Shown piece by piece: positions 4,099 through 64,000 of a stretch of DNA of 64,000 nucleotides. Source of the stretch: Styela clava (lineage: Eukaryota > Chordata > Ascidiacea > Stolidobranchia > Styelidae). The stretch is from contig NC_135262.1 of assembly GCF_964204865.1 (NCBI RefSeq), forward strand, positions 10,540,001 to 10,604,000. The letters run 5' to 3'. Below the pieces are notes generated by a model, which did not search any database, was not told the origin of the DNA, and saw nothing but the letters and a program-made list of their open reading frames with translations. Position numbers and translations under genes: made by a program. The stretch's first letter is position 1, and the number at the start of each line of letters is the position of its first letter.

Positions 4099-6021
4099 TC
4101 AGTCTAATTCTTCAATGGTAGGCCCAGCAGATGACTCTGATTTTGAGCTCGGTCCCGCATCGCCGGCTCCGTGAAAATCGGCACCACCAGCTTCTTGGTG
4201 AAGTTTAGTCAGGATTGGTGACGAGATATTTTCAAGTTCCTTTTGTTGATCTTCATACTGTTCTTTTGAAGCTGCTTGATTGTTTTCAATCCATTCAATG
4301 GTTTCTTTGCATTTTTGCAAAACCGCTGATCTGTCGTTTTCTGTAAGTTTATTTTTCGAGCTGTCGTTTTCTACAGCGGCTTTTACGTTGTACACAAGTG
4401 ATTCCAAGCTGTTTTTAGCTTGGATGCGACTTTTTTCTCTCTCGTCCTCCTCTTTATATTTATTTGCGTCATTGATCATTTGCTGGATTTCTTCTTTCCT
4501 GAGTCGGCCTCTGTCGTTTGTGATAGTAATTTTGTTTTCTCTGCCGGTACTTTCGTCTAGCGCTGAGACGTTGAGAATCCCGTTTGCATCAATGTCAAAG
4601 CATACATTGATTTGAGGTATTCCCCTCGGCGCCGGTGGAATACCTGAAAGTTCGAATTTTCCCAAAAGATGATTATCCTTTGTCATTGCCCGTTCTCCTT
4701 CGAAAACTTGTATAAGAACACCAGGCTGATTGTCGGCATACGTTGAAAATTTTTGGGTAATTTTTGAAGGAATCGTCGTGTTTCGTTTCACTAATGCAGT
4801 CATAACTCCACCCGCTGTCTCAATACCAAGAGACAAAGGTGCCACATCAAGAAGTAGCACATCTTGGATTTCTTCTGCCTTGTCGCCAGATAAAATAGCC
4901 GCCTGTACTGCGGCCCCATAAGCAACAGCCTCGTCTGGATTGATGGAGTTGTTTAATTCTTTTCCATTGAAAAAATCTTGCAGCAATTGCTTAATTTTAG
5001 GAATCCGGGTTGACCCACCGACCAAAACAACTTCATCAATGTTACTTTTATCTAGCTTGGCATCACGTAAAGCTTGCTCAACCGGCACTAAAGTGCTGCG
5101 AAAAAGATCAGAACAAGTGTCTTCAAATTTTGCTTTAGTAATGGTGGTGGAATAATCAACCCCTTCGAATAGAGAATCAAGCTCAATGCTCGCTTGCGAC
5201 GAAGATGAAAGTGTTCGTTTTGCTCGTTCACAAGCTGTATGTAGTCTTCGTAGTGCTCTCTTGTTCTGAGATAAATCCTTTTTGTGTTTTCTTTGAATCT
5301 CAATCAAAATTTTGCTTACCATACGATTGTCGAAGTCTTCACCACCAAGATGAGTATCACCTCTTGTGGATTTAACTTCAAATATTCCATCGTCGATGGA
5401 TAAAACGCTAACATCAAAAGTGCCACCACCCAAATCAAAGATTAGTACGTTGTGTTCTCCGCCACCTTTTTTATCGAGTCCGTATGCAATCGCGGCGGCG
5501 GTCGGCTCATTGATAATTCGTAAAACGTTCAGTCCAGCTATAGCTCCAGCATCTTTGGTCGCCTGTCTCTGCGAATCGTTAAAATAGGCTGGAACTGTCA
5601 CAACCGCGTCTTTCACCTTTGAACCCAAATAAGATTCGGCGGTTTCTTTCATTTTTACCAAGACCATCGAGCTTATTTCTTCAGGATAAAATGATTTAGT
5701 TTCATTCTTATAATTAACTTCAATTTTTGGTCTACCGTCGACTTCTAAAACTTTGAAAGGCCAGTGTTTCATATCGCTACGCACAGTCTGGTCTTCGAAT
5801 TTTCTACCAATCAATCGTTTTGCATCGAAAACGCTGTTTGTAGGATTCATTGCAACTTGATTTTTCGCCGCATCTCCTATGAGTCTCTCTGTATCGTTGA
5901 AAGCAACATAGCTCGGCGTTGTTCTATTGCCTTGATCATTCGCTATAATTTCAATTTTCCCGTGCTGAAAAACACCTACGCAAGAATAGGTAGTACCAAG
6001 ATCAATTCCTATCGCAGGCAT
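4099..6021 (-). CDS. HSP70: Cytosolic HSP70 chaperone, intronless
   Basis: ATP-dependent folding chaperone of the cytosol and nucleus. The 640-residue protein has all three HSP70 signatures: IDLGTTYS near residues 6-13, [11 protein letters not shown] near 195-205 and [12 protein letters not shown] near 332-343. A substrate-binding beta domain (about 395-505) and a helical lid with a Gly/Ser-rich tail follow. Length matches the family. No intron interrupts the frame, as in stress-inducible HSP70 genes of many animals. The tail lacks GGMP repeats. It ends IEELD where cytosolic HSP70 normally ends IEEVD, the TPR-cochaperone docking motif, so the Val position carries Leu. A TATAAAT lies about 125 bp upstream of the ATG. 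I looked for perfect nGAAnnTTCn heat-shock elements upstream and found only imperfect ones, for example around 6211-6218, so heat induction is inferred from the intronless structure. Confidence 0.97.
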
Positions 6022-19813: not shown

Positions 19814-19819
19814 TTTATT
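19814..19819 (-). terminator. Poly(A) signal of SELENOL
   Basis: The minus strand reads AATAAA about 40 bases past the SECIS hairpin and about 520 bases after the stop codon. It closes the transcript shortly before the zinc-finger gene starts at 19555. Confidence 0.7.
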
Positions 19820-19858
19820 GCTAGACTCATTCAAATTATATTTTATCACTAAATTTTT

Positions 19859-19905
19859 TTCAGGCATTCTTGACAGTGTAAACTGTTTTCCAAGAATGCT
19901 ATCAT
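19859..19905 (-). promoter_or_regulatory. SECIS element (type II) in the SELENOL 3' UTR
   Basis: The minus strand reads ATGA at 19905-19902, helix GCATTCTTG at 19899-19891, unpaired AAA at 19889-19887, a second small helix ACAGT/ACTGT with loop TTAC, the complementary strand CAAGAATGC at 19872-19864, then TGAA at 19862-19859. This is the eukaryotic SECIS layout: a non-Watson-Crick UGA/GA quartet, a helix of about ten pairs and an apical A motif. The extra apical mini-helix makes it form II. It starts about 430 nt after the stop codon of the upstream gene. It would recruit SBP2 and eEFSec to decode UGA as selenocysteine. Confidence 0.93.
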
Positions 19906-20335
19906 ACACAGTGATAAATGATATAAAAAAGAATAAAAGTCTACACAATGGATTGTAATATTGTGTTGATAATGTTCGAGATACTTCACAGCAGTGAAAT
20001 GAGTTATCTGACCTAAGAATATAATCATTGCGTAAAGTGTAATTGTGGAATGTGTAAAATATATAAACCACATAAATAAATGCACATCAAAGAGTTAGGG
20101 AATGTAACTGCAAAATGACTAAAAAATAAAACTCGTAAATTTTCTAATTGCTTTTACGAAAATGAAGAAAAATTATTCAATACTTGAACTTCTATTTAGG
20201 TATGGTTCACCATTCAAGTTTCAATAATCTGGGACGCTTTGAATAAAAATTATGTTCTCTGATAAATGTTCCAAATGATCTGGGTTTTTTTTTATTTTGG
20301 TGGTGGAGGGAGTAATATATGAAGATCAGAAATAT

Positions 20336-21253
20336 TTAGCCAGTTTCACGAAGATGGCTCAGGATTGCTGATACATTGGGCCGATCGGCTGACGTCTTAC
20401 TTCTGTGTATCATTGAAAGTTTCCATCCGGTGTTATCATGATTTGAAAAAATGAAATCTCCTCCCATCTGATGAGGATCGTCTTTAACATCCTTGTATGT
20501 AGCAATGAGTTCTGCACCTTTTGCCATTTCAATCCCATAATGAATAAGAGGAGCAATGCTCCATACTTTAAAAAACGATCTTTCTAGATGAAAAGCAGAA
20601 TACAGTGAACGATTTTCATCAGTATATAAATCAAATATTGCACCAGTATCATTTTTCCATCTGGTAGCACCTATTTGAGAACCAAATGAAATTAAAACTA
20701 CTTTGCACTTTAGATCGTGCAGCTCTTTCTGATGTTTCTGCAGTTCCGCAACGTGCTGACGTCACGGAAGTCAAGCAAAATGACGTAATAGGATTAATAA
20801 AAAACTTGTAAAATGTCCGTCCTCACAAAACTTGTCAACTGAACTCACAGAATGATCACCAAGAACTTGCTTTACATTGAAATTGCTGGTAATATTGTCA
20901 CCAATGGTTAACAGCTTTGATGGAGTAGTTTTCTTCAAAATTTCTTTTTCCAGCAACAAAATGAACTCATCCCATGATTGTTCAAATTGAAGATATTCTT
21001 CCACACTTTCACGTAAATCACAATGATTATGATATTTTTCCAGGATTTCATCCATCTGTTTTCTTTCTGTAATATGCAACTCCTTCATCAAGTCTTTATA
21101 CATATTCATAAGGCCACACAAAGATCCAAGTTTTGATTCAGTAAATGAATGTACACCAATTTCAGACAGAACATCTGTGGATTGTCTTAATAATTCATTT
21201 GCACGAGATAGAAAATCATTCAATGCTCCTGCAATTCTTTCCGACTGATCCAT
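20336..21253 (-). CDS. SELENOL: Selenoprotein L (UxxU thioredoxin-like selenoprotein)
   Basis: The frame runs from ATG 21253 to a stop at 20336, 305 residues, if UGA at 20773-20771 and 20764-20762 is read as selenocysteine. The local sequence is RHFA-U-LP-U-RQHVAELQ, where peroxiredoxin-like proteins have a CxxC active site, so both cysteines are replaced (Sec161, Sec164). The C-terminal half has PRXL2/AhpC-TSA family features: LYTDENRSLYSAF, ERSFFKVWS, DDPHQMGGDFIF and SKTSADRP. The N-terminal 150 residues are mostly helical by appearance. Selenoprotein L is the known family with a UxxU motif forming a diselenide, reported mainly from aquatic animals. The coding region has no intron. A SECIS and an AATAAA follow. 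Standard gene callers would report two fragments (20771-21253 and 20336-20527). Predicted role: thiol/selenol redox enzyme; the substrate is unknown. Confidence 0.93.
20762..20773 (-). promoter_or_regulatory. Two in-frame UGA (Sec) codons, U-L-P-U
   Basis: On minus, TGA CTT CCG TGA sits in frame between two coding halves. Both TGAs occupy the Cys positions expected in the thioredoxin-like redox loop, and no other stop interrupts 305 codons. This spacing is very unlikely from random decay. Confidence 0.93.
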
Positions 21254-21643
21254 GCTATATTGCAGTATTGTTTGACTATTTCTACTATAGATTATGTCTA
21301 CACCATTTTATTGTCAAAATATCTGATGATATATATAAGCATGAAGTAATATTAAAAAGTATAGTGAGGACGGCATGTCAATGTCTCGGAGATGATGTCG
21401 AAGTCATCTGCTGTCTGGGATAAGCAGGGAAAAAAAGCTTATGAAACAGTTGAAGTACCAAGAAACATTCCTCTGATTTCCGAAGACCGAGGTAAAGTAG
21501 AGGCTGTAATGAAGCCTCGACAACGTATCAACAATGGTGTTTGAATAATATTGATTACAGAAGTTTAGAAACCAGTCAACGAGTTGCTATTTGATATTGT
21601 CAAACCTAATATCAGTTTTAAAAATTGAAGAAATGATGGATGA
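21254..21643. other. SELENOL upstream region
   Basis: This holds the presumptive promoter and 5' UTR of SELENOL, up to the target duplication of the foldback element. I could not place a TATA box with confidence. Confidence 0.4.
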
Positions 21644-21652
21644 TGTTCAACG

Positions 21653-22395
21653 CGGTCTTACTACTTACTGAATAAAGCGCGAAACACCGCAAAGAGCGCA
21701 AAACAGCGCGAAACAGCGGAAAACAGAGGGAAACAGCGCTAAACAGTGGGGAAACAGCGCAAAACAGATGGAAACAGTGTGAAGCAGAAAAAAATTTTGC
21801 AATGAGTTCGAGGCACCTTGTTTTGAGTTGGAGTACCACGGCAGCAAATTAAAAACACAAACCAACGTATGTAGCCAGTAATGCTGTAATGGCAGGTCTG
21901 CCCCTGCTGGTGACACATTTTAGGTACCATAATTAGAACATTTTCCATATGGATATGGTTGACTTTGGGGTTAGGGTTAGGTAAAAAGGGTCCTCCAGAA
22001 GTATGTGCACCAAGATGGCGCACAACCTGAAAATAGTATGTGTGTGTGTGTGTAGCGGATTCAGGTTGTGCGACATATTGCTGCACATACTTCTGGAGCA
22101 CCAAAAAGGTAGATAAAATTTCGCATGATGACCTATAATCCGGTACATAACCTTGTAAATATACCGGAAATAGCGCCATGAAACCATGGCGAGAGGCGCC
22201 GTGGTTCTTTCGTGGCAGGAGGTGGTAATGACTGCGTCTCCTGTTTTGCGCTGTTTCCCTCTGTTTTGCGCTGGTTTCCTTCTGTTTCGCGCTGTTTTCC
22301 TCTGTTTTGCGCTGTTTCGCGCTGTTTTGCGCTCTTTTGCTCTGTTTTGCGCTCTTTGCGGTGTTTCGCGCTGTATTCAGTAAGTAGTAAGACCC
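21653..22395. mobile_element. Foldback transposon with minisatellite arms, 9-bp TSD
   Basis: A 9-bp duplication TGTTCAACG flanks the element at 21644-21652 and 22396-22404. The inverted ends begin GGTCTTACTACTTACTGAAT and continue for about 140 bp as irregular repeats of GCGCAAAACA or GCGCGAAACA. The 9-bp target duplication and long inverted ends fit a Mutator-like (MULE/foldback) non-autonomous element. No transposase frame is visible. A palindromic MITE is nested at 21991-22102. Confidence 0.85.
21991..22102. mobile_element. Palindromic MITE, copy 2, nested
   Basis: This has the same arms as the 16507-16623 copy (CTCCAGAAGTATGTG, CACCAAGATGGCGCACAACC). It is flanked by AAAAAGGG and AAAAAGGT. 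A short TG repeat fills the loop. It sits inside the foldback element and so inserted after it or moved with it. Confidence 0.8.
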
Positions 22396-22423
22396 TGTTC
22401 AACGTATCACATAATCTGCTTCA

Positions 22424-24048: not shown

Positions 24049-24334
24049 CTACGAGAATTCAGTAAATCAATTCACAAGTCTATTTCGTGCCTAACCAGTG
24101 TCAACTCTTTAAACTTTGCATCGAGCATTTTAAAAAATGTTATGACCGGATGCATGGCGGGTATGATTTCTGAAAAATGGGTAGCTCTCAGTTAAGTGAA
24201 AATATTTCTTGGTTTTCCCCGAAGTGACTGTAAAGTGTTAACTTATAGTCACTTTGGTTTTCCCAAGAATTTGGTTTTCGTTTGTTGCGTGTATCTCGTT
24301 CTGCCCGTTAGTTGTTCGGAACAGCAAAACTGAA

Positions 24335-25996
24335 ATGGAGCTCGAAATTAACTGTGATAAGAACAATAGAATATGGAGAGTTTTCCAGCGACTCGACAGA
24401 TTAAGGAAAAATAAAGATCGTTGTGACGTTTTAATCAAGGTTGGATCTGATGAAATCCCGGCTCATAAGAATGTGTTGTCTGCTAACTCGGATTATTTTG
24501 ATACGATGTTTGAGCATGACACGGAAGAAAAAAAATCAGGAATATGTGAATTGAAAGAAATTGATGCATTTTGTGCTAAAAAATGTGTTGACTACATGTA
24601 CAGCTGTGAAATTGCTGCTCCATTCGAAAAACTCAGTGATTTATTGCATGCTGCCACATTAATGCAACTCGATGAAATTTGTGGCGGAATTGTGGAACTT
24701 CTTGTAACAAATCTGAGTATAGAATCAGTATTTGAAACCAGAAAAATTTCCAAAATGTTTAATCTGACAAATCTTAAAGAAATATGCAACCAATTCATTT
24801 TGGATAAATTTGAAGAAATCTCAAAGGGTGATGATTTTGGTTTTTTCGATAAAAAGGGAGTTATAAACATGATAAAATTTAAAAAATTGAAAGTTTCGGA
24901 AGACGTGAAACTTAGGGCTGTATTCAACTGGATTAAATTTGATTACAAACATCGTAAAAAGTTTGCAAGCGATCTAATTGCATTGGTTGATTTATCCAAA
25001 TTATCTCTTGGGTATCGAAGATATGTCATTGCCAATGAAGATATTGTCAGAAAAAATGCTGATCGTCAGTTCAAATTCAGCATGTCTGTGATGGATTCCA
25101 TGAATATTACGCCATCGAGTGTTGCTGAAAGTGCGAGTGAAAAGGGTATTGTCATTTTTAATAAAAGATCTGGCCACCTGCATTGTTATAATCCTGAAAA
25201 CAACTCGTGGGTTCAAATGCAACAAATGAACGAAGACATGGAGGATGAAAATTTTTCTGCTGTTGCTGTTGACGACTTCATTTATGTTATGATGGAAAAC
25301 AAGGCTTTTTACAGGCTTAAGTATAATGATGAAGATGCCTCCTGGGATAATATGGCTGATATGCTTGTAGAGCATGGCGAGTATCCTCCAGCTGTTGTTT
25401 CGAATAACAACATTTATGTCATCGGGACTTCTTCTCCATACAACGATACCAACGCTGTTGAGAAGTATGATCCCAGTTTAAACATATGGACAAGATTAAA
25501 AAATATCTCACAACCCTTGTATCGACCAGGATTATTAGTTTTTCAAAATAAGATTTATTGTTTTGGTGGCTACTCCTCTGGACAGTTACTAAATATAGTC
25601 GATCAGTTTGATGCCGAAGCTGATGTTTGGAAAATAGTCAGTCATATGCCTGATGCAAAATCAGATGCTGCTGTTGTTACAGTTGGTGAAAGCATTTATA
25701 TTCTTGGTGGACTTGTCGATGACTCCGAATCCACTACAGCAGTTCAACGATTTGATCCAATAAGTAATCACTGGCAATCTTTAAATCCAATGCTTACCAG
25801 CCGATGTTCATTTAATGCTTTTGTAATTCAGGATTTCATTTATGCAGTTGGGGGATGTGGATATTGTAACAGCTTAGAGAAATACAACATTGCAGAGAAC
25901 AAATGGGAGATGATCGAGAAACCAGAAAAAATGGAATTGGAAATTTCCGAGTCAGTAGTAATCCAAGGTTTTCACCATTATTCAAGGATTAATTAA
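24335..25996 (+). CDS. BTB-BACK-Kelch protein, intronless
   Basis: The 553-residue protein starts at ATG 24335; the frame is open further 5' but without an ATG, and the sequence turns BTB-like only after this Met. Residues about 20-120 form a BTB domain (DRCDVLIKVGSDEIPAHKNV, then LSANSDYFDTMF), 125-235 a BACK domain, and 260-540 Kelch repeats with GG doublets and spaced Tyr/Trp (YCFGGYSSG, YILGGLVDD, YAVGGCGYC). Members usually act as substrate adaptors of cullin-3 ubiquitin ligases or bind actin. The single-exon structure suggests an intronless KLHL-type expansion gene or retrogene. An AATAAA follows 42 bp after the stop. The specific orthologue and substrate cannot be told from sequence. 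Confidence 0.93.
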   Translation: MELEINCDKNNRIWRVFQRLDRLRKNKDRCDVLIKVGSDEIPAHKNVLSANSDYFDTMFEHDTEEKKSGICELKEIDAFCAKKCVDYMYSCEIAAPFEKLSDLLHAATLMQLDEICGGIVELLVTNLSIESVFETRKISKMFNLTNLKEICNQFILDKFEEISKGDDFGFFDKKGVINMIKFKKLKVSEDVKLRAVFNWIKFDYKHRKKFASDLIALVDLSKLSLGYRRYVIANEDIVRKNADRQFKFSMSVMDSMNITPSSVAESASEKGIVIFNKRSGHLHCYNPENNSWVQMQQMNEDMEDENFSAVAVDDFIYVMMENKAFYRLKYNDEDASWDNMADMLVEHGEYPPAVVSNNNIYVIGTSSPYNDTNAVEKYDPSLNIWTRLKNISQPLYRPGLLVFQNKIYCFGGYSSGQLLNIVDQFDAEADVWKIVSHMPDAKSDAAVVTVGESIYILGGLVDDSESTTAVQRFDPISNHWQSLNPMLTSRCSFNAFVIQDFIYAVGGCGYCNSLEKYNIAENKWEMIEKPEKMELEISESVVIQGFHHYSRIN

Positions 25997-26754: not shown

Positions 26755-27003
26755 AATCTATCTGCTTATTGGACACGTAGTGGACATAACGATCGTTTCA
26801 ATATTATGTTGTTGTTGTTGTTCTTTGACACGTTTTTAAAAAGTCGCTTTTCTCTTCGAATACTGGACCAATTGCTTTGAAATTTTCAGTGGTTAAGATA
26901 AAAAATTTCTCCAGAAGGCTATTACTTTTTTTTTCGCTATGACGTCATCAAAATTATGTGACTCTACGTGTCCATATATTTGAGCATAGCTCTCTTGTCT
27001 TCA
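26755..27003 (+). mobile_element. LINE 3' end, truncated copy
   Basis: GTGGACATAACGATCGTTTC, then TTGTTGTT and TTTCTCTTCGAATACTGGAC match the 3' end of the minus-strand LINE at 58401-60480. The tail contains GACGTCATCAAAATTATGTG and TATTTGAGCATAGCTCTCTT. It is 5' truncated and keeps no RT. Confidence 0.8.
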
Positions 27004-27005
27004 AT

Positions 27006-27107
27006 TGGATTCTCATGGTTCAGTATAGCAGTGAGCCCACGTGGCCCACCTGAGGATGTTTCTGTGGTGCAGCATGGCTCGCTGCTATACTGAACCATGA
27101 GAATCCA
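27006..27107. repeat. Near-perfect 31-bp-arm palindrome (hairpin)
   Basis: GGATTCTCATGGTTCAGTAT extends to an arm of 31 bases that recurs inverted with one mismatch after a loop of about 40 bases. It is either a small MITE or a hairpin-forming transcript. No family was recognised. Confidence 0.8.
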
Positions 27108-27699
27108 GTAAACTTTGATTGAAGAAGCAATGAATGATGAGGTTGTTTTTGCTAATGAGTGGTAATTCTCATTTTAAATATTGAAGTGGAAGTGTCTATG
27201 AAAGTGATCTAAGGTTGAGAAACACTGGTTTTGTAACATGGGATTTCACAGGGTTTTGACTCACCAAAAATGCTTTTTAATAATGAGCACAGTATCTAAT
27301 ATTTATGAGCCATTTTCCAACGAACAATTCCCGGCTTAGAAAGTCTTATCATAGTAGACTAGGCACAAATATAAATGTAATTTATCTTTGTGCGCAGTAT
27401 TCCTAGTAAAGTTAATGCCGTAAGTCACGCTCCAGTGATAATTATTACTGTAAGTAATTTAACTTTAGCGCAATATTTCCAGTTAATTATGTTTTTGCTT
27501 GTGTTTTCATCATTCTAATGTCTTAGGTTTATGTATTTAATTCATTTGTTTAATTCACTATGCAATACTTTTTAGTCAGCAGTGTTTTTTTTTCTATTGA
27601 ACGATTATATTCTCTTTGATAAGCTGACCTTGGTAACCTTAGTTCAGCACTGGTCTACTTGAGCTTTTTTCAAAACTATACACTATGTGGGATCGGAAC

Positions 27700-30519: not shown

Positions 30520-30667
30520 GTAACGTTGTCAGCGATATTAGCGGTTTTAGTACAAGTTTTGTGCTTCCTTAGGCTATTTTTAAATACCTGAATGTTTTTA
30601 CAATATACACGATTTACGTATGTAATTAACGTTCATAAAAACGTCGTTGAATTTTCATGTATAAATA
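30520..30667 (+). promoter_or_regulatory. Peroxidase 1 core promoter with TATA box
   Basis: TATAAATA at 30660-30667 lies 53 bp before the ATG at 30720. About 150 bp upstream, including CGATATTAGCGGTTTT and TTCCTTAGGCTATTT, is conserved in order with the upstream region of peroxidase 2 (50050-50210, minus). The conserved TATA overlaps the more 5' ATG at 30657, which argues against that upstream start. Confidence 0.65.
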
Positions 30668-30719
30668 TGTCTATCCGCCGATGATCCATGTATTGTGTAA
30701 AGATAAGTGTGCTGGAATA

Positions 30720-33344
30720 ATGTGGGTTTCTACGATTGTTGCGTTTTCTTTGATTCAGTTAATTATTGGTCAGCATAGGTCTTCCAAACAATGCCTAACC
30801 AGACGAGCAAACTGTGTTTATCAAACTTTTCCGTCCTTGGATGGAACCTGTAACAACTTGAATAATCCTACATGGGGCGCTAGTAATACAGTATTAAATC
30901 GTTTGTTGCCACCAGAATATGCCGATGCAAGGGGACAACCGAGATCACAAGGTGTTTTTCGCAACCTTACATCTGCAAGAAGTATATCTAATGGACTGGT
31001 AGAATCTAAAAAGAAAATCTCAAACGGTGTATCTCACATGCACGTATTGTATGGACAGTTACTGGGTCATGATTTAGCACTTACGCCTATGGTAAAAGGT
31101 AATGACGGTACCAACTTAGAATGTGACTGCGACAAACCTGTCTCAGATTGTATGAACATAAAAATCTCCCCTAGCGATATTCAATCGCAAACGGCTAACA
31201 TAAAATGTATGCCCCTGGCTCGATCAAGAGCTGCATCTGGTATCGATGGATGCGTATTTCGTCATCGCGAACAGCTAAATGAATTGTCAAGTTACATCGA
31301 CGCGACTGTTATTTACGGGAGCTCAGACCGTATTGCCAAAGAACTAAGAGATCCGAGGTCGAATGCTGGTGAATTGGCAACTGATATGAATCCGGTGGGT
31401 GGGCCTCATCGTAATCTCCCGAATCAAGACCAATTAAAAAATAAAGAGATTTCTAAAGTTGTTCGATGCCCGATAAAAGTCCACACGCCCAAAAATATTC
31501 CATGCTTTGTAGCAGGAGACGTCAGAGCAAACGAGAATCCAGGACTTACTTCTTTGATTACGATAATGGTTCGATATCACAATTATGTTGCAAGAAATCT
31601 CAAGTCCATTAACGAAGCATGGCCGAGTGACAAAGTATTCAACGTCGCTCGACGTATTGTGTCTGCTATTCATCAATCAATCACATACCGAGAATTTATT
31701 CCTCTGTTACTGGGGCCATTGTGGTCAAAACGGTTTAATTTGAGGTTAACAGACGGATATGCGTATTGGAACGGATACGATCCGCGTTATAATTCAGGTA
31801 GAACGAACGAATTTACAACGGCAGCTTTTCGGTACGGCCACAGTCAACTTACTGACACTTTCACCAGGAGGAATTCTTTTTTCAATCCCGATATTATACC
31901 AAATGTTACATCCAAAGGCATATTTTTCACTAGTGACTCACTTCTAGAAAAGGAGGGAGGGGGATCTGGCGCTTTTATGCGCGGGTTTATGGTTGATAAT
32001 GCGGAGAAAACTGACACTAGTGTAAATGATAACTTACGGAATCAACTGAACACAGAAATGGGAGAAAAATTTGGTGGAGATCTCTTTGCAATCAACTTGC
32101 AACGAGGACGAGATCATGGTTTACCAGGCTACAATAAATACAGGGAGTTGTGCGGTCTAACAAGAGCAAAAGTTTTCGTCGATTTCTCAAATGAAATACC
32201 CACGGATATTATTGATCGATTTAGACAAGTTTATGACTCAGTTGAGGATATTGACCTTTATGTAGGTGGATTGGCTGAAAATACAGTTGATGGAGGAGAA
32301 GTCGGACCAACATTTGCCTGCATCTTGGCTTTCGAATTCCGCGCGATGAGAAAGGGAGATCGCTTTTGGCACGAAAACGAACATTCTCCTTCTCCTTTCA
32401 CAACTGAACAACTCTCTTCAATTCGAAAGACAACTTTTGCAAGTATTTTATGTAAAGTTAGCGAAGACATGAAGTTTGTGCTGAAGTCACCTATGAAAAT
32501 AGGCAACGCAAATTACGATAGATTTGTCAGCTGCGGCAGCGTTAACGATCTAGATTTTTATGCGTGGAAGGATGGCGATCAAAGAAATACGTATAGCAGA
32601 AAATCTCACGTTAACTCAGAGTGGACAACTTGGTTTATCACAAAGTATACAAATAATAGGTTCGTTGATTGGCGACAAGTAGCGTCACAAATATCAAAAT
32701 CAAGACCTGAAGACATATGCGAAAATAGACTTGGGTTCGAAACTCGAACTGTGCCTAAAAGCAATTTTATACAAATCCGGTTTACATGTCAAGCTGGTTC
32801 AATACAATCTTCAGACTTTCCTTTCCAATTATCACAAAATTATTATTGGTCACAATGGATTCACGCACGCGACAATTCGGTCGAAATATATGAATTTAAA
32901 TGTAAAACAATTGTTGCAATTCAGGCAATGTCGGGCGACAAATTTGCTGGCGAAACTGGTGACGTTTTTGAAAAATTTGGAACTGAAGCGGGTTTTCTAT
33001 GTCGAGACAACGATCAATACAATGGAAAATGCCACAAATATCAAGTTCGTGCTCTCTGTCTTAGAAATAATAAAATGGGAAAAGAACATTTTCAGGAACA
33101 ATTTATATCCAAGCAATCAGTTACTTTGTATCCCGAGTCTATCATGTCGACTCAGCATCTCTATCCTAAGCCTACTACTACAGCTGTTCCGAAGAAGGCT
33201 TTGGATAGGGCAAATTCATACTGTGTGGCGTACAATGTGTGCTGTATCCCTCCTAGACGTCACAATCTAAAGTATTCGCCAAACCGCGTTCTGACTTACG
33301 CCGCGAATTTGTGCAAATATTATGGTATCTGTTGCAACCCTTAA
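30720..33344 (+). CDS. Secreted animal haem peroxidase 1 with WxxW-like C-terminus
   Basis: The 874-residue, single-exon protein starts at ATG 30720, matching the paralogue start; the open frame from 30657 adds 21 residues that the paralogue lacks. Residues 1-18 form a signal peptide. The animal peroxidase (MPO/peroxinectin-like) domain follows: distal GQLLGHD with His117, calcium-loop SSYIDATVIYGSS near 190-202, GDVRANE with Arg269 and Glu272, proximal RYHN with His287. Gly116 replaces the Asp (MPO Asp94) that makes one haem ester; the Glu for the second is kept. After about residue 620, WTTW and WSQW motifs and a Cys-spaced stretch ending QVRALC resemble WxxW (CILP/mucin) modules. A Cys-rich tail ends CKYYGICCNP. 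Likely role: extracellular H2O2-dependent oxidation in defence or matrix cross-linking. It is oriented opposite to the other copies. Confidence 0.93.
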   Translation: MWVSTIVAFSLIQLIIGQHRSSKQCLTRRANCVYQTFPSLDGTCNNLNNPTWGASNTVLNRLLPPEYADARGQPRSQGVFRNLTSARSISNGLVESKKKISNGVSHMHVLYGQLLGHDLALTPMVKGNDGTNLECDCDKPVSDCMNIKISPSDIQSQTANIKCMPLARSRAASGIDGCVFRHREQLNELSSYIDATVIYGSSDRIAKELRDPRSNAGELATDMNPVGGPHRNLPNQDQLKNKEISKVVRCPIKVHTPKNIPCFVAGDVRANENPGLTSLITIMVRYHNYVARNLKSINEAWPSDKVFNVARRIVSAIHQSITYREFIPLLLGPLWSKRFNLRLTDGYAYWNGYDPRYNSGRTNEFTTAAFRYGHSQLTDTFTRRNSFFNPDIIPNVTSKGIFFTSDSLLEKEGGGSGAFMRGFMVDNAEKTDTSVNDNLRNQLNTEMGEKFGGDLFAINLQRGRDHGLPGYNKYRELCGLTRAKVFVDFSNEIPTDIIDRFRQVYDSVEDIDLYVGGLAENTVDGGEVGPTFACILAFEFRAMRKGDRFWHENEHSPSPFTTEQLSSIRKTTFASILCKVSEDMKFVLKSPMKIGNANYDRFVSCGSVNDLDFYAWKDGDQRNTYSRKSHVNSEWTTWFITKYTNNRFVDWRQVASQISKSRPEDICENRLGFETRTVPKSNFIQIRFTCQAGSIQSSDFPFQLSQNYYWSQWIHARDNSVEIYEFKCKTIVAIQAMSGDKFAGETGDVFEKFGTEAGFLCRDNDQYNGKCHKYQVRALCLRNNKMGKEHFQEQFISKQSVTLYPESIMSTQHLYPKPTTTAVPKKALDRANSYCVAYNVCCIPPRRHNLKYSPNRVLTYAANLCKYYGICCNP

Positions 33345-47370: not shown

Positions 47371-49998
47371 TTAAGGGTTGCAACAGATACCATAATATTT
47401 GCACAAATTCGCGGCGTACGTCAGAACGCGATTTGACGAATACTTTAAGTTGTGACGTCTAGGAGGGATACAGCACACATTGTACGCCACACAGTATGAA
47501 TTTGTCCTATCCAAAGCCTTCTTCGGAACAGCTGTAGTAGTTGGTTTAGGGTAGAGATGCTTAGTCGGCATGATAGACTCGGGATACAAAGTAACTGATT
47601 GCTTGGTTGTAAATTGTTCCTGGAAATGTTCTTGTCTCATTTTAATATTTCTAAGACAGAGAGCACGAACTTGATATTTTTGGCATTTTCCATTATACTG
47701 ATCGTTGTCTCGACATAGAAAACCCGCTTCAGTTCCAAATTTTTCAAAAACGTCACCAGTTTCGCCAGCAAATTTGTCGCCTGACTTAGCCTGAATTGCA
47801 ACAATTGTTTTACATTTAAATTCATATATTTCGACCGAATTGTCGCGTGCGGGAATCCATTGTGACCAATAATAATTTTGGGATAATTGGAAGGGGAAGT
47901 CTGAAGATCGTATTGAACCAGCTGGACAGGTAAACCGAATTTGTATAAAACTGCTCTTAGGCACGGTTCGAGTTTCGAACCCAAGTCTATTTTCGCATAT
48001 GCCTCCAGGTCTTGATTTTGATATTTGTGACGCTGCTTGTCGCCAATCAACAAATCTATTATTCGTATACTTTGTGATAAACCAAGTTGTCCACTCTGAG
48101 TTAGCGTGAGATTTTCTGCTATACTTATTTGTTTGATGATCATCTTTCCAAGCGTAGAAATCTAAATCGTAAACGCTACCGCAACTGACAAATCTATCAT
48201 AATTTGCGTTGCTTACTTTCAAAGGTGACTTCAGCACAAACTTCATGTCTTCGCTAACTTTACATAAAATACTTGCTAAAGTTGTCTTTCGAATTGAAGA
48301 GAGTTGTTTAGTTGTGAAAGAAGAAGGAGAACGTTCGTTTTCGTGCCAAAATCGATCTCCCTTTCTCAATGCGCGAAATCCGTAGGCCAATATGCAGGCA
48401 AATGTTGGTCCGACTTCCCCTCCGTCCACTAGATTTTCAGCCAATCCTCCTACATAAAGGTCAATATCATTAACTGAGTCATAAACGAGTCTTAGTCGAT
48501 TAATAATATCCGTGGGTATTTCATTCGAGAAATCGCCGAAAACTTTTGCTTTTGTTAGACCGCACAATTCCCTGTATTCATTGTAGCCTGGTAAACCATG
48601 ATCTCGTCCTCGTTGCACGTTAATTGCAAAGAGATCTCCACCAAATTTTTCTCCAATCTTCCTGCTCAGATGATTCCGTAAGGAATCGTCCACACTAGTG
48701 TCAGTTTTTTCCGCATCATCAACCATAAACCCGCGCATAAATGCGCCAGATCCCCCTCCATCCTTTTCTAGAAGTGAGTCACTGGTAAAAAATGTGCCTT
48801 TGGATGGAACGTTTGCTATAATACCAGGATTGAAAAATGAATCCCTCCGAGTCAAAGTGTCAGTAACTTGACTGTGGCCGTACCGGAAAGCTGCCGTTGC
48901 AAATTCATTTGTTATACCTGAATTATAACGCGGATCGTATCCGTTCCAATACGCATATCCGTCTGCTAACTTCAAATCAAACCGTTTTGACCACAATGGC
49001 CCCAGTAACGGAGGAATAAATTCTCGGTATGTGATCGATTGATAAATAGCAGATACAATACGTCGAGCGACATTGAATACTTTGTCACTAGGCCATGCTT
49101 TATTAATGGACTTGAGATTTCTTGCAACATAGTTGTGATATCGAACCATTATCGTTATCAATGAAGTAAGTCCTGGATTCTCGTTTGCTCTGACGTCCCC
49201 GGCTACAAAGCATGGAGTATTTTTGGGCGTGTGGACTTTTATCGGGCATTGAACAACTTTGGAAATCTCTTTATTTTTTAATTGGTCTTGATTCGGGAGA
49301 TTACGATGAGGCCCACCTATTGGATTCAATTCAGTAGCCAATTCACCTGCATTCGACCTCGGATCTCTTAGTTCTTTGGCAATCCGGTCTGAGCTCCCGT
49401 AAATAAAAGTACCGTCGATGTAACTTGACAATTCATTTATCTGTTCGCGACGAGGAAATACACATCCATTGATGCCAGATGCAGCTCTTGATCGAGCCAG
49501 GGGCATACATTTTCTGTTAGCCTTTTGCGATTGAATATCGCTAGGGGGAATTTTTATGTTTATGCAATCTGAGACAGGTTTATCGCAGTCACATTCTAAA
49601 GCTGTGTCATCATTACTTTTTACCAGGGGCGTAAGTACGAAATCATGAGCCAGCAACTGTCCATACAATACGTGCATATGAGATACACTCTTAGAAGTTA
49701 ACTTTTTAGATTCTACCAGTCCATTAGATATACTTCTTGTAGATGTAAGATTGCGAAAAACACCTTGTGACTTCGGTTGTCCTCTAGAATCGGCATATTG
49801 TGGCGGCAACAAACGATTTAATACTGTATTACTAGCACCCCATGCAGGATTATTCAAGTTGTTACAGGTTCCATCCAAGGACGGAAAAGCAGTTTGATAA
49901 AAACAGTTTGCTTGTCTGGCTAGGCACTGATCGGAAGATCTATGCTGACCAAAAATTAACTGAATTGACGAAAACGCAACAATCGTATAAATCCACAT
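47371..49998 (-). CDS. Secreted animal haem peroxidase 2
   Basis: The 875-residue, single-exon paralogue of peroxidase 1 is aligned end to end. It has a signal peptide (MWIYTIVAFSSIQLIFG), the distal GQLLAHD (His118), SSYIDGTFIYGSS, GDVRANE, proximal RYHNYVARNL, WTTW and WSQW motifs in the C-terminal module, and the same Cys tail CKYYGICCNP. Ala replaces the residue equivalent to MPO Asp94, versus Gly in copy 1, so both paralogues lack that haem ester ligand. Gly replaces the Ala/Asp-following residue in the calcium loop (IDGT for IDAT). The frame is intact and both haem-ligand His are kept, so an active enzyme is expected. A TATAAATA sits 52 bp upstream. Confidence 0.93.
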   Translation of the reverse strand: MWIYTIVAFSSIQLIFGQHRSSDQCLARQANCFYQTAFPSLDGTCNNLNNPAWGASNTVLNRLLPPQYADSRGQPKSQGVFRNLTSTRSISNGLVESKKLTSKSVSHMHVLYGQLLAHDFVLTPLVKSNDDTALECDCDKPVSDCINIKIPPSDIQSQKANRKCMPLARSRAASGINGCVFPRREQINELSSYIDGTFIYGSSDRIAKELRDPRSNAGELATELNPIGGPHRNLPNQDQLKNKEISKVVQCPIKVHTPKNTPCFVAGDVRANENPGLTSLITIMVRYHNYVARNLKSINKAWPSDKVFNVARRIVSAIYQSITYREFIPPLLGPLWSKRFDLKLADGYAYWNGYDPRYNSGITNEFATAAFRYGHSQVTDTLTRRDSFFNPGIIANVPSKGTFFTSDSLLEKDGGGSGAFMRGFMVDDAEKTDTSVDDSLRNHLSRKIGEKFGGDLFAINVQRGRDHGLPGYNEYRELCGLTKAKVFGDFSNEIPTDIINRLRLVYDSVNDIDLYVGGLAENLVDGGEVGPTFACILAYGFRALRKGDRFWHENERSPSSFTTKQLSSIRKTTLASILCKVSEDMKFVLKSPLKVSNANYDRFVSCGSVYDLDFYAWKDDHQTNKYSRKSHANSEWTTWFITKYTNNRFVDWRQAASQISKSRPGGICENRLGFETRTVPKSSFIQIRFTCPAGSIRSSDFPFQLSQNYYWSQWIPARDNSVEIYEFKCKTIVAIQAKSGDKFAGETGDVFEKFGTEAGFLCRDNDQYNGKCQKYQVRALCLRNIKMRQEHFQEQFTTKQSVTLYPESIMPTKHLYPKPTTTAVPKKALDRTNSYCVAYNVCCIPPRRHNLKYSSNRVLTYAANLCKYYGICCNP

Positions 49999-62164: not shown

Positions 62165-64000
62165 TTAAGGGTTGCAACAGATACCATAATATTTGCACAA
62201 ATTCGCGGCGTATGTCAAAACACGGTTTGACGAGTTCTTTAGATGGTGACGTCTAGGAGGGATACAGCACACATTCTACGCCACACAGTACGAATTTGCC
62301 CTATCCAAAGCCTTTTTCGGAACATCTTTAAAAGTAGGCTCGGGGTAGAGATGCTTAGTCGGCATGGTAGACTGGGGATACAAAGTAACTGATTGTTTGG
62401 TTGTGAAATGTTTCTGGAGATGTTCTTCCCCCATTTTATTATTTCTGAGACAGAGAGCACGAACTTGGTATTTTTGGCATTTTCCATTGTATTGATCGTT
62501 ATCTCGACATAGGAAACCCGCTTCAGTTCCAAATTTCTCAAACACATCACCAGTTTCGCCAGCAAATTTGCCGCCCGACTTTGCCTGAATTGCAACAATC
62601 GTTTTACATTCAAATTCATATATTTCGACCGAATTGTCGCGAGGGTGAATCCATTCTGACCAATAATAATTTTGTGATAATTGGAAAGGAAAATCTGAAG
62701 ATCGTATTGAACCAGCTGGGCAGGTAAACCGGATTTGTATAAAACTGCTCCTAGGCACAGTTCGAGTTTCGAACCCAAGTCTTTTTTCGCATATGTCTTC
62801 AGGCCTTGATCTTGATACTTGTGACGCTGCTTGTCGCCAATCAACAAATCTATTATTTGTAAACTCTGTGATAAACCAAGTTGTCCACTCTGAGTTAGCG
62901 TGAGATTTTCTGCTGTACGTATTTTTTTGATGATCATCTTTCCACGCATTAAAATCTAGATCGTAAACGCTGCTGCAACTGACAAATCTATTGTAATTTG
63001 CGTTGATTATTTTCATAGGTGACTTCAGCACAAACTTCATGTCTTCGCTAACTTCACATAAAATACTTGCTAAAGTTGTCTTTCGAATTGAAGAGAGTTG
63101 TTCGGTTGTAAAAGGAGAAGGAGAACGTTCGTTTTCGTGCCAAAAGCGATCTCCTTTTCTCAACGCGCGAAATCCGTAGGCCAATATGCAGGCAAATGTT
63201 GGTCCGACTTCTCCTCCGTCCACTAGATTTTCAGCCAATCCTCCTACATAAAGATCAATATCATTAACTGAGTCATAAACTAGTCTTAGTCGATTAATAA
63301 TATCCGTGGGTATTTCATTTGAGAAATCGCTGAAAACCTTTGCTTTGGTGAGACCGCACAATTCCCTGTATTTATTGTAGCCTGGTAAACCATGATCTCG
63401 TCCTCGTTGCAAGTTAATGGCAAAGAGATCTCCACCAAATTTTTCTCCAATTTTTGTGTTCAGTTGATTGCGTAAGGCATCGTCTACACTAGTGTCAGTT
63501 TTCTCCGCATGATCAACCATAAATCCGCGTAAATATGCGCCAGATCCCCCTCCTTCCCTTTCCAGGAGTGAGTCACTTGTAAAAAATGTGCCTCTAGATG
63601 GAACGTTTGGTATATTACCAGGATTGTAAAAAGAATCCCTGCGGGTTAATATGTCAGTAACTTGACTGTGGCCGTACCGAAAAGCTGCCGTTGCAAATTC
63701 ATTTGTTATACCTGAATTATACCGCGGATCGTATCCGTTCCAAAACGCATAATCGTCTGTTAACTTCAAATTAAACCGCTTTGACCACAATGGCCCCACC
63801 AGCAGAGAAATATATTCTCGGTATGTGATTGATTGATAAATAGCAGATACAATACGTCGAGCGACGTTGAACACTTTGTCACTAGGCCATGCTTTGTTAA
63901 TGGATTTGAGATTTCTTGCAACATAGTTGTGATATCGAACCATTATTGTGAGTAGAGAAGTAAGTCCTGGATTCTCGTTTGCTCTAACATCCCCGGCTAC
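62165..64000 (-). pseudogene. Haem peroxidase 3, partial, premature stop
   Basis: Coding similarity to peroxidase 2 runs from 64000 (5' part outside the window; first codons read VAGDVRANEN) down to a TAA at 62167-62165. It keeps Arg/Glu of GDVRANE, the proximal RYHN, and the WTTW and WSEW module. A single TAC-to-TAG change at 62278-62276 truncates the frame after SYCVA, removing 37 residues including the Cys-rich tail; downstream codons remain otherwise open to the ancestral stop. It may be a recent pseudogene or a functional tail-less form; the distal-His half is not visible. Confidence 0.85.

Follow-up and report, generated by a model that had tools for sequence, protein, structure and literature searches.

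A probable selenoprotein L gene with two in-frame UGA codons and a SECIS-like element in Styela clava

Coding frame and RNA elements at the locus

We analyzed a 64-kb stretch of Styela clava DNA (the window), which carries on its minus strand a coding frame interrupted by two internal stop codons, here called selL. The features of the locus are collected in Table 1. The frame opens with an ATG at 21253 that has a favorable initiation context (A at -3 and G at +4), is preceded by an in-frame TAA at 21310, and closes with a TAA at 20338-20336. Its only internal stops are codons 161 and 164, both TGA. The initial annotation had described a minus frame from 21253 to 20336 whose sole stops are two TGA codons spaced as U-x-x-U, and codon-by-codon reading confirmed this. 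Translated around the pair, the frame gives RHFA-U-LP-U-RQHVAEL, placing the two UGAs where a peroxiredoxin-like domain has its active-site CxxC. ORF calling with table 11 returns selL as two frames, and routine gene finding is likely to split it into two genes.

Table 1. Features of the selL locus (coordinates within the 64-kb window)
Feature	Position	Strand	Basis or remark
Selenoprotein L coding frame	20336..21253	(-)	single exon as read; 305 codons + TAA; two in-frame TGA
N-terminal helical extension, about residues 1-110	20924..21253	(-)	common to P0004; helices in AF2 model
Peroxiredoxin-fold domain, residues 112-305	20339..20920	(-)	fold matches of predicted structure
UGA 1, predicted Sec161	20771..20773	(-)	frame; upstream half of relative P0004 ends exactly here
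UGA 2, predicted Sec164	20762..20764	(-)	Sec 3/15, Cys 11/15, Ser 1/15 in bacterial relatives here
11-bp hairpin with 4-nt loop, candidate selenocysteine redefinition element	20744..20769	(-)	fold stability tests
SECIS-like element with apical mini-helix, 3' UTR	19845..19915	(-)	Rfam SECIS_1 score, fold z, pattern match
Possible polyadenylation signal AATAAA	19814..19819	(-)	sequence

About 430 nt past the stop codon lies a SECIS-like hairpin composed of ATGA (19905-19902), a 9-bp helix, an unpaired AAA, an apical mini-helix, and CTGA/TGAA. Every element that had been listed for this hairpin beforehand, and the AATAAA that follows it, is present in the sequence. This region has a folding energy of -24.1 kcal/mol; shuffled versions average -10.9 (z -5.33), and none of the 200 folds as well. 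The absence of a SECIS score had been named as a finding that would count against the selenoprotein reading; Rfam SECIS_1 does score the hairpin, and the full-length match reaches 31 bits (E 0.0014, searching 2.2 kb), short of the gathering score of 35. A scan of the 64 kb with Rfam, which applies stricter filters, did not list the hairpin at E<=1. A SECIS_1 search of the whole genome returned nothing at E<=0.001 and is uninformative, as only 150 of 7,261 candidates were scored and its own controls were missed.

We also scanned the window with a SECIS pattern, which matched at one site, the hairpin downstream of selL. In 25 random sequences of 64 kb each, generated with a first-order Markov model, the mean number of matches was 0.28 and the highest 3. 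The pattern was written after the site was known, so the scan is not a blind test. That the sole match falls just 3' of the two-UGA frame and on the same strand is a stronger point than the scan count. Judging from the consensus parts, the selL 3' UTR likely contains one eukaryotic SECIS.

A second RNA structure lies within the coding region. It begins 1 nt after UGA 1, contains UGA 2 in its 5' arm, and is the most stable among 889 30-nt windows of the selL CDS. Synonymous recodings reached the same stability in 0 of 2000 cases under the codon usage of the gene and in 18 of 2000 under uniform codons, as did 27 of 12,792 40-nt windows drawn from the minus strand across the 64 kb. Dinucleotide shuffles gave less support, with z -2.03 and 9 of 200 shuffles reaching the stability of the hairpin. 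Local GC content is 58% over 33 nt, compared with 36% in the gene. Structures directly after a Sec UGA are described as redefinition elements in SELENON and SELENOT (PMC8704476, in the excerpt cited). The selL hairpin resembles these elements in being a coding-region RNA structure close 3' of a Sec UGA, as the available portions of PMC8704476 and PMC3541580 present them; it differs in that it spans a second UGA and starts one base past the first, and its role as such an element is a candidate one.

Relatives and family assignment

The selL product scores 124.6 bits against NCBIfam NF040769 (SelL_rel_redox, "SelL-related redox protein"), for which the curated cut-off is 120. It also matches the Pfam families PF13911 (AhpC-TSA_2; 2.7e-13) and PF00578 (1.3e-7). 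A first AF2 model, built from 4 sequences, was poor (pLDDT 58), and the fold matches that define the peroxiredoxin domain come from the second. The top Foldseek match of the model is human prostamide/PGF synthase, which we take to be PRXL2B. Searched against PDB sequences, the protein alone gave three matches, all with E above 1, and the selL profile gave one weak match, a thiol peroxidase (E 0.006). Among 774 candidates, a search with the full-length protein found no relative at E<=0.001; related loci were likewise found neither by protein profile in genome_contigs and viral_contigs nor by tblastn in plasmids.

Three proteins in the protein database are informative about the UGA pair. P0004 (160 aa) is 57% identical to the upstream half of selL, has the same start Met, and ends with LLRHFA exactly at UGA 1. 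P0002 (142 aa) begins a few residues after the UGA pair and is 79-80% identical to the downstream half, which is thus the better conserved of the two. The contigs that encode these two proteins share their source and their length of 1,152 bases, from which we infer that both proteins come from one and the same contig of a second organism. P0003 (36-41% identical; 90.6 bits against NF040769, below the cut-off of 120) reads WLPW at both UGA sites, which, to judge from this protein sequence, is what would be expected if TGA had been called as Trp.

Bacterial relatives were collected in two ways. The first used a degenerate pattern, [LF][RS]HF[AG]-UGA-xx-UGA-[RS], which gave 70 hits in genome_contigs and 4 in viral_contigs. 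A script read 73 of the frames, and 13 of these belong to the family by profile (E<=1.5e-6): 12 from Chloroflexi/SAR202/Dehalococcoidia and one from Acidobacterium, with none among the four viral frames. UxxU conservation in this set is by construction. All four pattern-found proteins that were tested pass the NF040769 cut-off. L044 (Dehalococcoidia), which contains an N and stands outside the 73, encodes a family protein too, by eye; among the SelL-related UxxU sequences, L019 is a fragment.

The second collection is more telling because it was not chosen by motif. We searched the NF040769 model in 148 genomes of one bacterial class and found a match at E<=0.001 in 94 and a match over the cut-off in 14. 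Among these 14 best over-cut-off matches, three have two TGA codons, seven have one, and four have none. With one further match at 117.3 bits, the resulting 15 relatives read UxxU (3), UxxC (6), UxxS (1), and CxxC (5) at the places of the selL UGAs; one of the UxxU genomes, G001, is the seed found via the UxxU pattern, which leaves 2 of 14 as independent UxxU cases. The initial annotation had held that homologues lacking Cys at these positions would speak against it. Of the 15 bacterial relatives, 14 carry Cys or Sec at each of the two places, and the exception is the UxxS protein.

The bacterial NF040769 proteins belong to the same fold family as selL and have the motif at the same place, with UxxU in the 13 pattern-found frames, but they are only 25-35% identical over the common part and, in the 11 that were aligned, lack the N-terminal extension. 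Joint folding of 12 bacterial genes (L009, L011, L020, L023, L025, L032, L047, L048, L049, L052, L059, and L069) gave a hairpin with an AGUU loop and 7 pairs, 2 of them with double changes, located at +22 to +39 when counted from the first base of UGA 1. This hairpin is probably a bacterial SECIS. In selL, by contrast, the hairpin lies at +5 to +30 and is accompanied by the SECIS-like element in the 3' UTR. Of 5 bacterial UxxU genomes tested, 4 contain a tRNA-Sec that exceeds the gathering score, and the best match in the fifth reached 43.7 against the required 47. A literature search on selenoproteins together with selenocysteine in SAR202 found no paper.

The N-terminal extension is common to selL and one relative, P0004. 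It is absent in all 11 aligned bacterial rows; in 10 of these 11 genes an upstream stop lies 47-86 codons before UGA 1, and L047 runs off its stretch after 80 codons. P0003 does not show the extension; just about 60 residues precede its motif, and the protein may be incomplete (its contig has 1,324 bases). This part of selL yields no Pfam match above a family cut-off, and the structural match lists, being filled by the peroxiredoxin domain, barely probe it. In a further bacterial alignment (A6), the L086 row stood one base out of frame and was disregarded.

Selenocysteine decoding and alternative readings

The source genome contains a tRNA-Sec that scores 79.6 bits (gathering score 47) and has the anticodon tca; it is the only one of 44 matches to exceed the cut-off. 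Six SepSecS matches fall within a single stretch of contig C6. In two of these the matched frame contains one stop, as would be expected where exon ends read into introns. By gene content, namely the tRNA-Sec and the SepSecS exons, this genome appears able to decode UGA as Sec. As a separate observation, 40 of the 44 matches to the tRNA-Sec model lie on contig C3 at about 23.49-23.76 Mb, with 38.8-44.4 bits, below the cut-off of 47. They are probably a tandem cluster of another tRNA. A search of the assembly for COX1 gave no match.

The identification as SELENOL, put forward in the initial annotation, is therefore supported by several lines of evidence: the NF040769 score over the cut-off, the UxxU at the CxxC place, the SECIS-like hairpin, the relatives, and the tRNA-Sec together with SepSecS. 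We conclude that the gene very probably belongs to the selenoprotein L family, with both active-site UGAs likely decoded as selenocysteine and one likely SECIS in the 3' UTR.

We considered several alternative readings. The first is that selL is a dead or decaying copy, e.g., a retrocopy, that has acquired two stop codons. Its coding frame has no introns, and lack of introns is listed among the signs of spurious selenoprotein copies (PMC12822975, in the section cited). However, a search of the source genome (376.6 Mb, 379 contigs) with the selL protein gave one match, the selL frame itself. This search returned no parent copy from which a retrocopy could derive, and the single match speaks against a retrocopy of an intron-bearing parent. 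The frame is otherwise open over 305 codons, its only two stops are both TGA and both at catalytic positions, a diverged relative keeps both halves with the same start and the same break point, and the SECIS-like hairpin is intact. On the strength of the single genome match, the open frame, and the break point of the relative, we rejected the pseudogene or retrocopy reading, which we regard as highly improbable.

There is an equally slight chance that UGA 1 is a real stop, giving a 160-residue protein, with the downstream half untranslated or a separate frame. Such a reading would agree with the two frames of the table-11 ORF calling and with the presence of the relative in the database as two proteins. 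A stop at this point would, however, cut through the middle of a single peroxiredoxin fold, and it is the half beyond the stop that is better conserved (79-80% versus 57%), in a genome that carries tRNA-Sec and SepSecS. Splicing around the UGA pair, which the initial annotation had named as a third finding that would count against it, is also unlikely, by argument: the bacterial homology runs without a gap across the pair, and excision of an intron of ordinary length would take conserved residues with it.

Slighter still is the probability that the gene encodes a selenoprotein of the PRXL2/SelU branch of AhpC-TSA_2 and not SelL: AhpC-TSA_2 also matches two other genes of the source genome and the top Foldseek match is the human synthase named above, but selL scores 124.6 bits against NF040769 where the PRXL2-like gene on C4 (L002) scores 59.9, C4 and C8 of the source genome carry PRXL2-like genes of their own, and two Sec residues two positions apart are described for SelL (PMC3316567, in the excerpt cited).

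Under the selenoprotein L assignment, SBP2 and eEFSec, recruited by the SECIS, would bring Sec-tRNA to both UGAs. The strong hairpin after UGA 1, which holds UGA 2, likely slows the ribosome or hinders the release factor, and would in this way favor readthrough. The product would be a redox enzyme of peroxiredoxin fold: Sec161 would attack the substrate, a peroxide or a disulfide, and Sec164 would resolve the intermediate as a diselenide with Sec161, the enzyme cycling between diselenol and diselenide. The helical N-terminal domain would likely direct partner binding or oligomer state. A bolder proposal, which we put forward tentatively and consider somewhat unlikely as a whole, has two parts: (i) the selL mRNA contains a second, local recoding device, in which the UGA-straddling hairpin couples the two Sec insertions so that both or neither take place, with the distant SECIS supplying the machinery; and (ii) the protein is a two-domain SelL with a conserved helical N-terminal module.

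Animal SelL and neighboring loci

Animal SelL proteins (fish, sea squirt, amphioxus, Capitella, Nematostella, Trichoplax, and sponge) resemble the predicted selL product in being Prx-like with two Sec residues two positions apart and one SECIS for both, as described in the available portions of PMC3316567, PMC3541580, PMC2397514, PMC2398784, PMC2874816, and PMC3473315. SelL is reported to hold a diselenide, to have its two Sec residues served by a single SECIS, and to range over fish, invertebrates, and marine bacteria (PMC2397514, PMC3316567, PMC3541580; excerpts). Sea squirt SelL is known from ESTs, according to the part of PMC2874816 cited here, and the table in PMC3473315, in the portion available, gives SelL for sponge, Trichoplax, Nematostella, Capitella, and amphioxus and shows Lottia without it. 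We compared selL with animal SelL by published description, and the cited excerpts do not mention an N-terminal helical domain or a UGA-spanning hairpin. The gene described here is a further, well-supported member of the known selenoprotein L family and not a new kind of protein; what may be new are its N-terminal domain and the candidate hairpin across the UGA pair.

SelL is among the worst annotated selenoproteins: in Ensembl, the grade "well annotated" applies to fewer than 1% of the genes for SELENOE, SELENOL, and SELENOJ (PMC12822975, in the section cited). With its single exon, a SECIS-like element in the 3' UTR, and a hairpin across its UGAs, selL is a compact system in which to study how two closely spaced UGAs are served by one SECIS. 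In addition, the bacterial series of UxxU, UxxC, UxxS, and CxxC proteins within one class provides natural Sec-to-Cys pairs for gauging the contribution of the diselenide.

The two other AhpC-TSA_2 genes of the source genome, on contigs C4 and C8, are presumably PRXL2-like. The gene on C4 (L002; G000:C4:13704520-13704849, minus; ORF L002:1408-2115) is an AhpC-TSA_2 paralogue that reads RHFLDYVTREYV. By eye, its active-site places hold D and T, and since neither Cys nor Sec stands at the two places, it is probably not a redox enzyme of SelL type. The gene on C8 (L004; G000:C8:18259655-18259861) is PRXL2-like, has seemingly several exons, and shows an ordinary FGCPVCQ motif in an upstream frame; by its sequence, it would be a Cys counterpart within the genome of selL itself.

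Several other features lie in the window. About 390 bp upstream of the selL start sits an element of about 760 bp (21645-22403) whose terminal inverted repeats are long but imperfect (105-nt arms, 89%) and which has a 20-mer tandem repeat inside; its inner inverted repeat gives an Rfam mir-559-like match of 38.6 bits, below the cut-off of 95. An Rfam mir-580-like match at 26996-27114 (49.3 bits against a cut-off of 83) is perhaps a repeat hairpin. Long single-frame ORFs encode HSP70 at 4099-6021 (-) and a BTB-Kelch protein at 24254-25996 (+). Three further long single-frame ORFs, which by their content suggest an animal source, encode animal haem peroxidases with a Mucin2_WxxW tail, at 30657-33344 (+), 47371-49998 (-), and 62276-63943 (-), and form a local gene family, the third member of which covers only the second half of the peroxidase profile.
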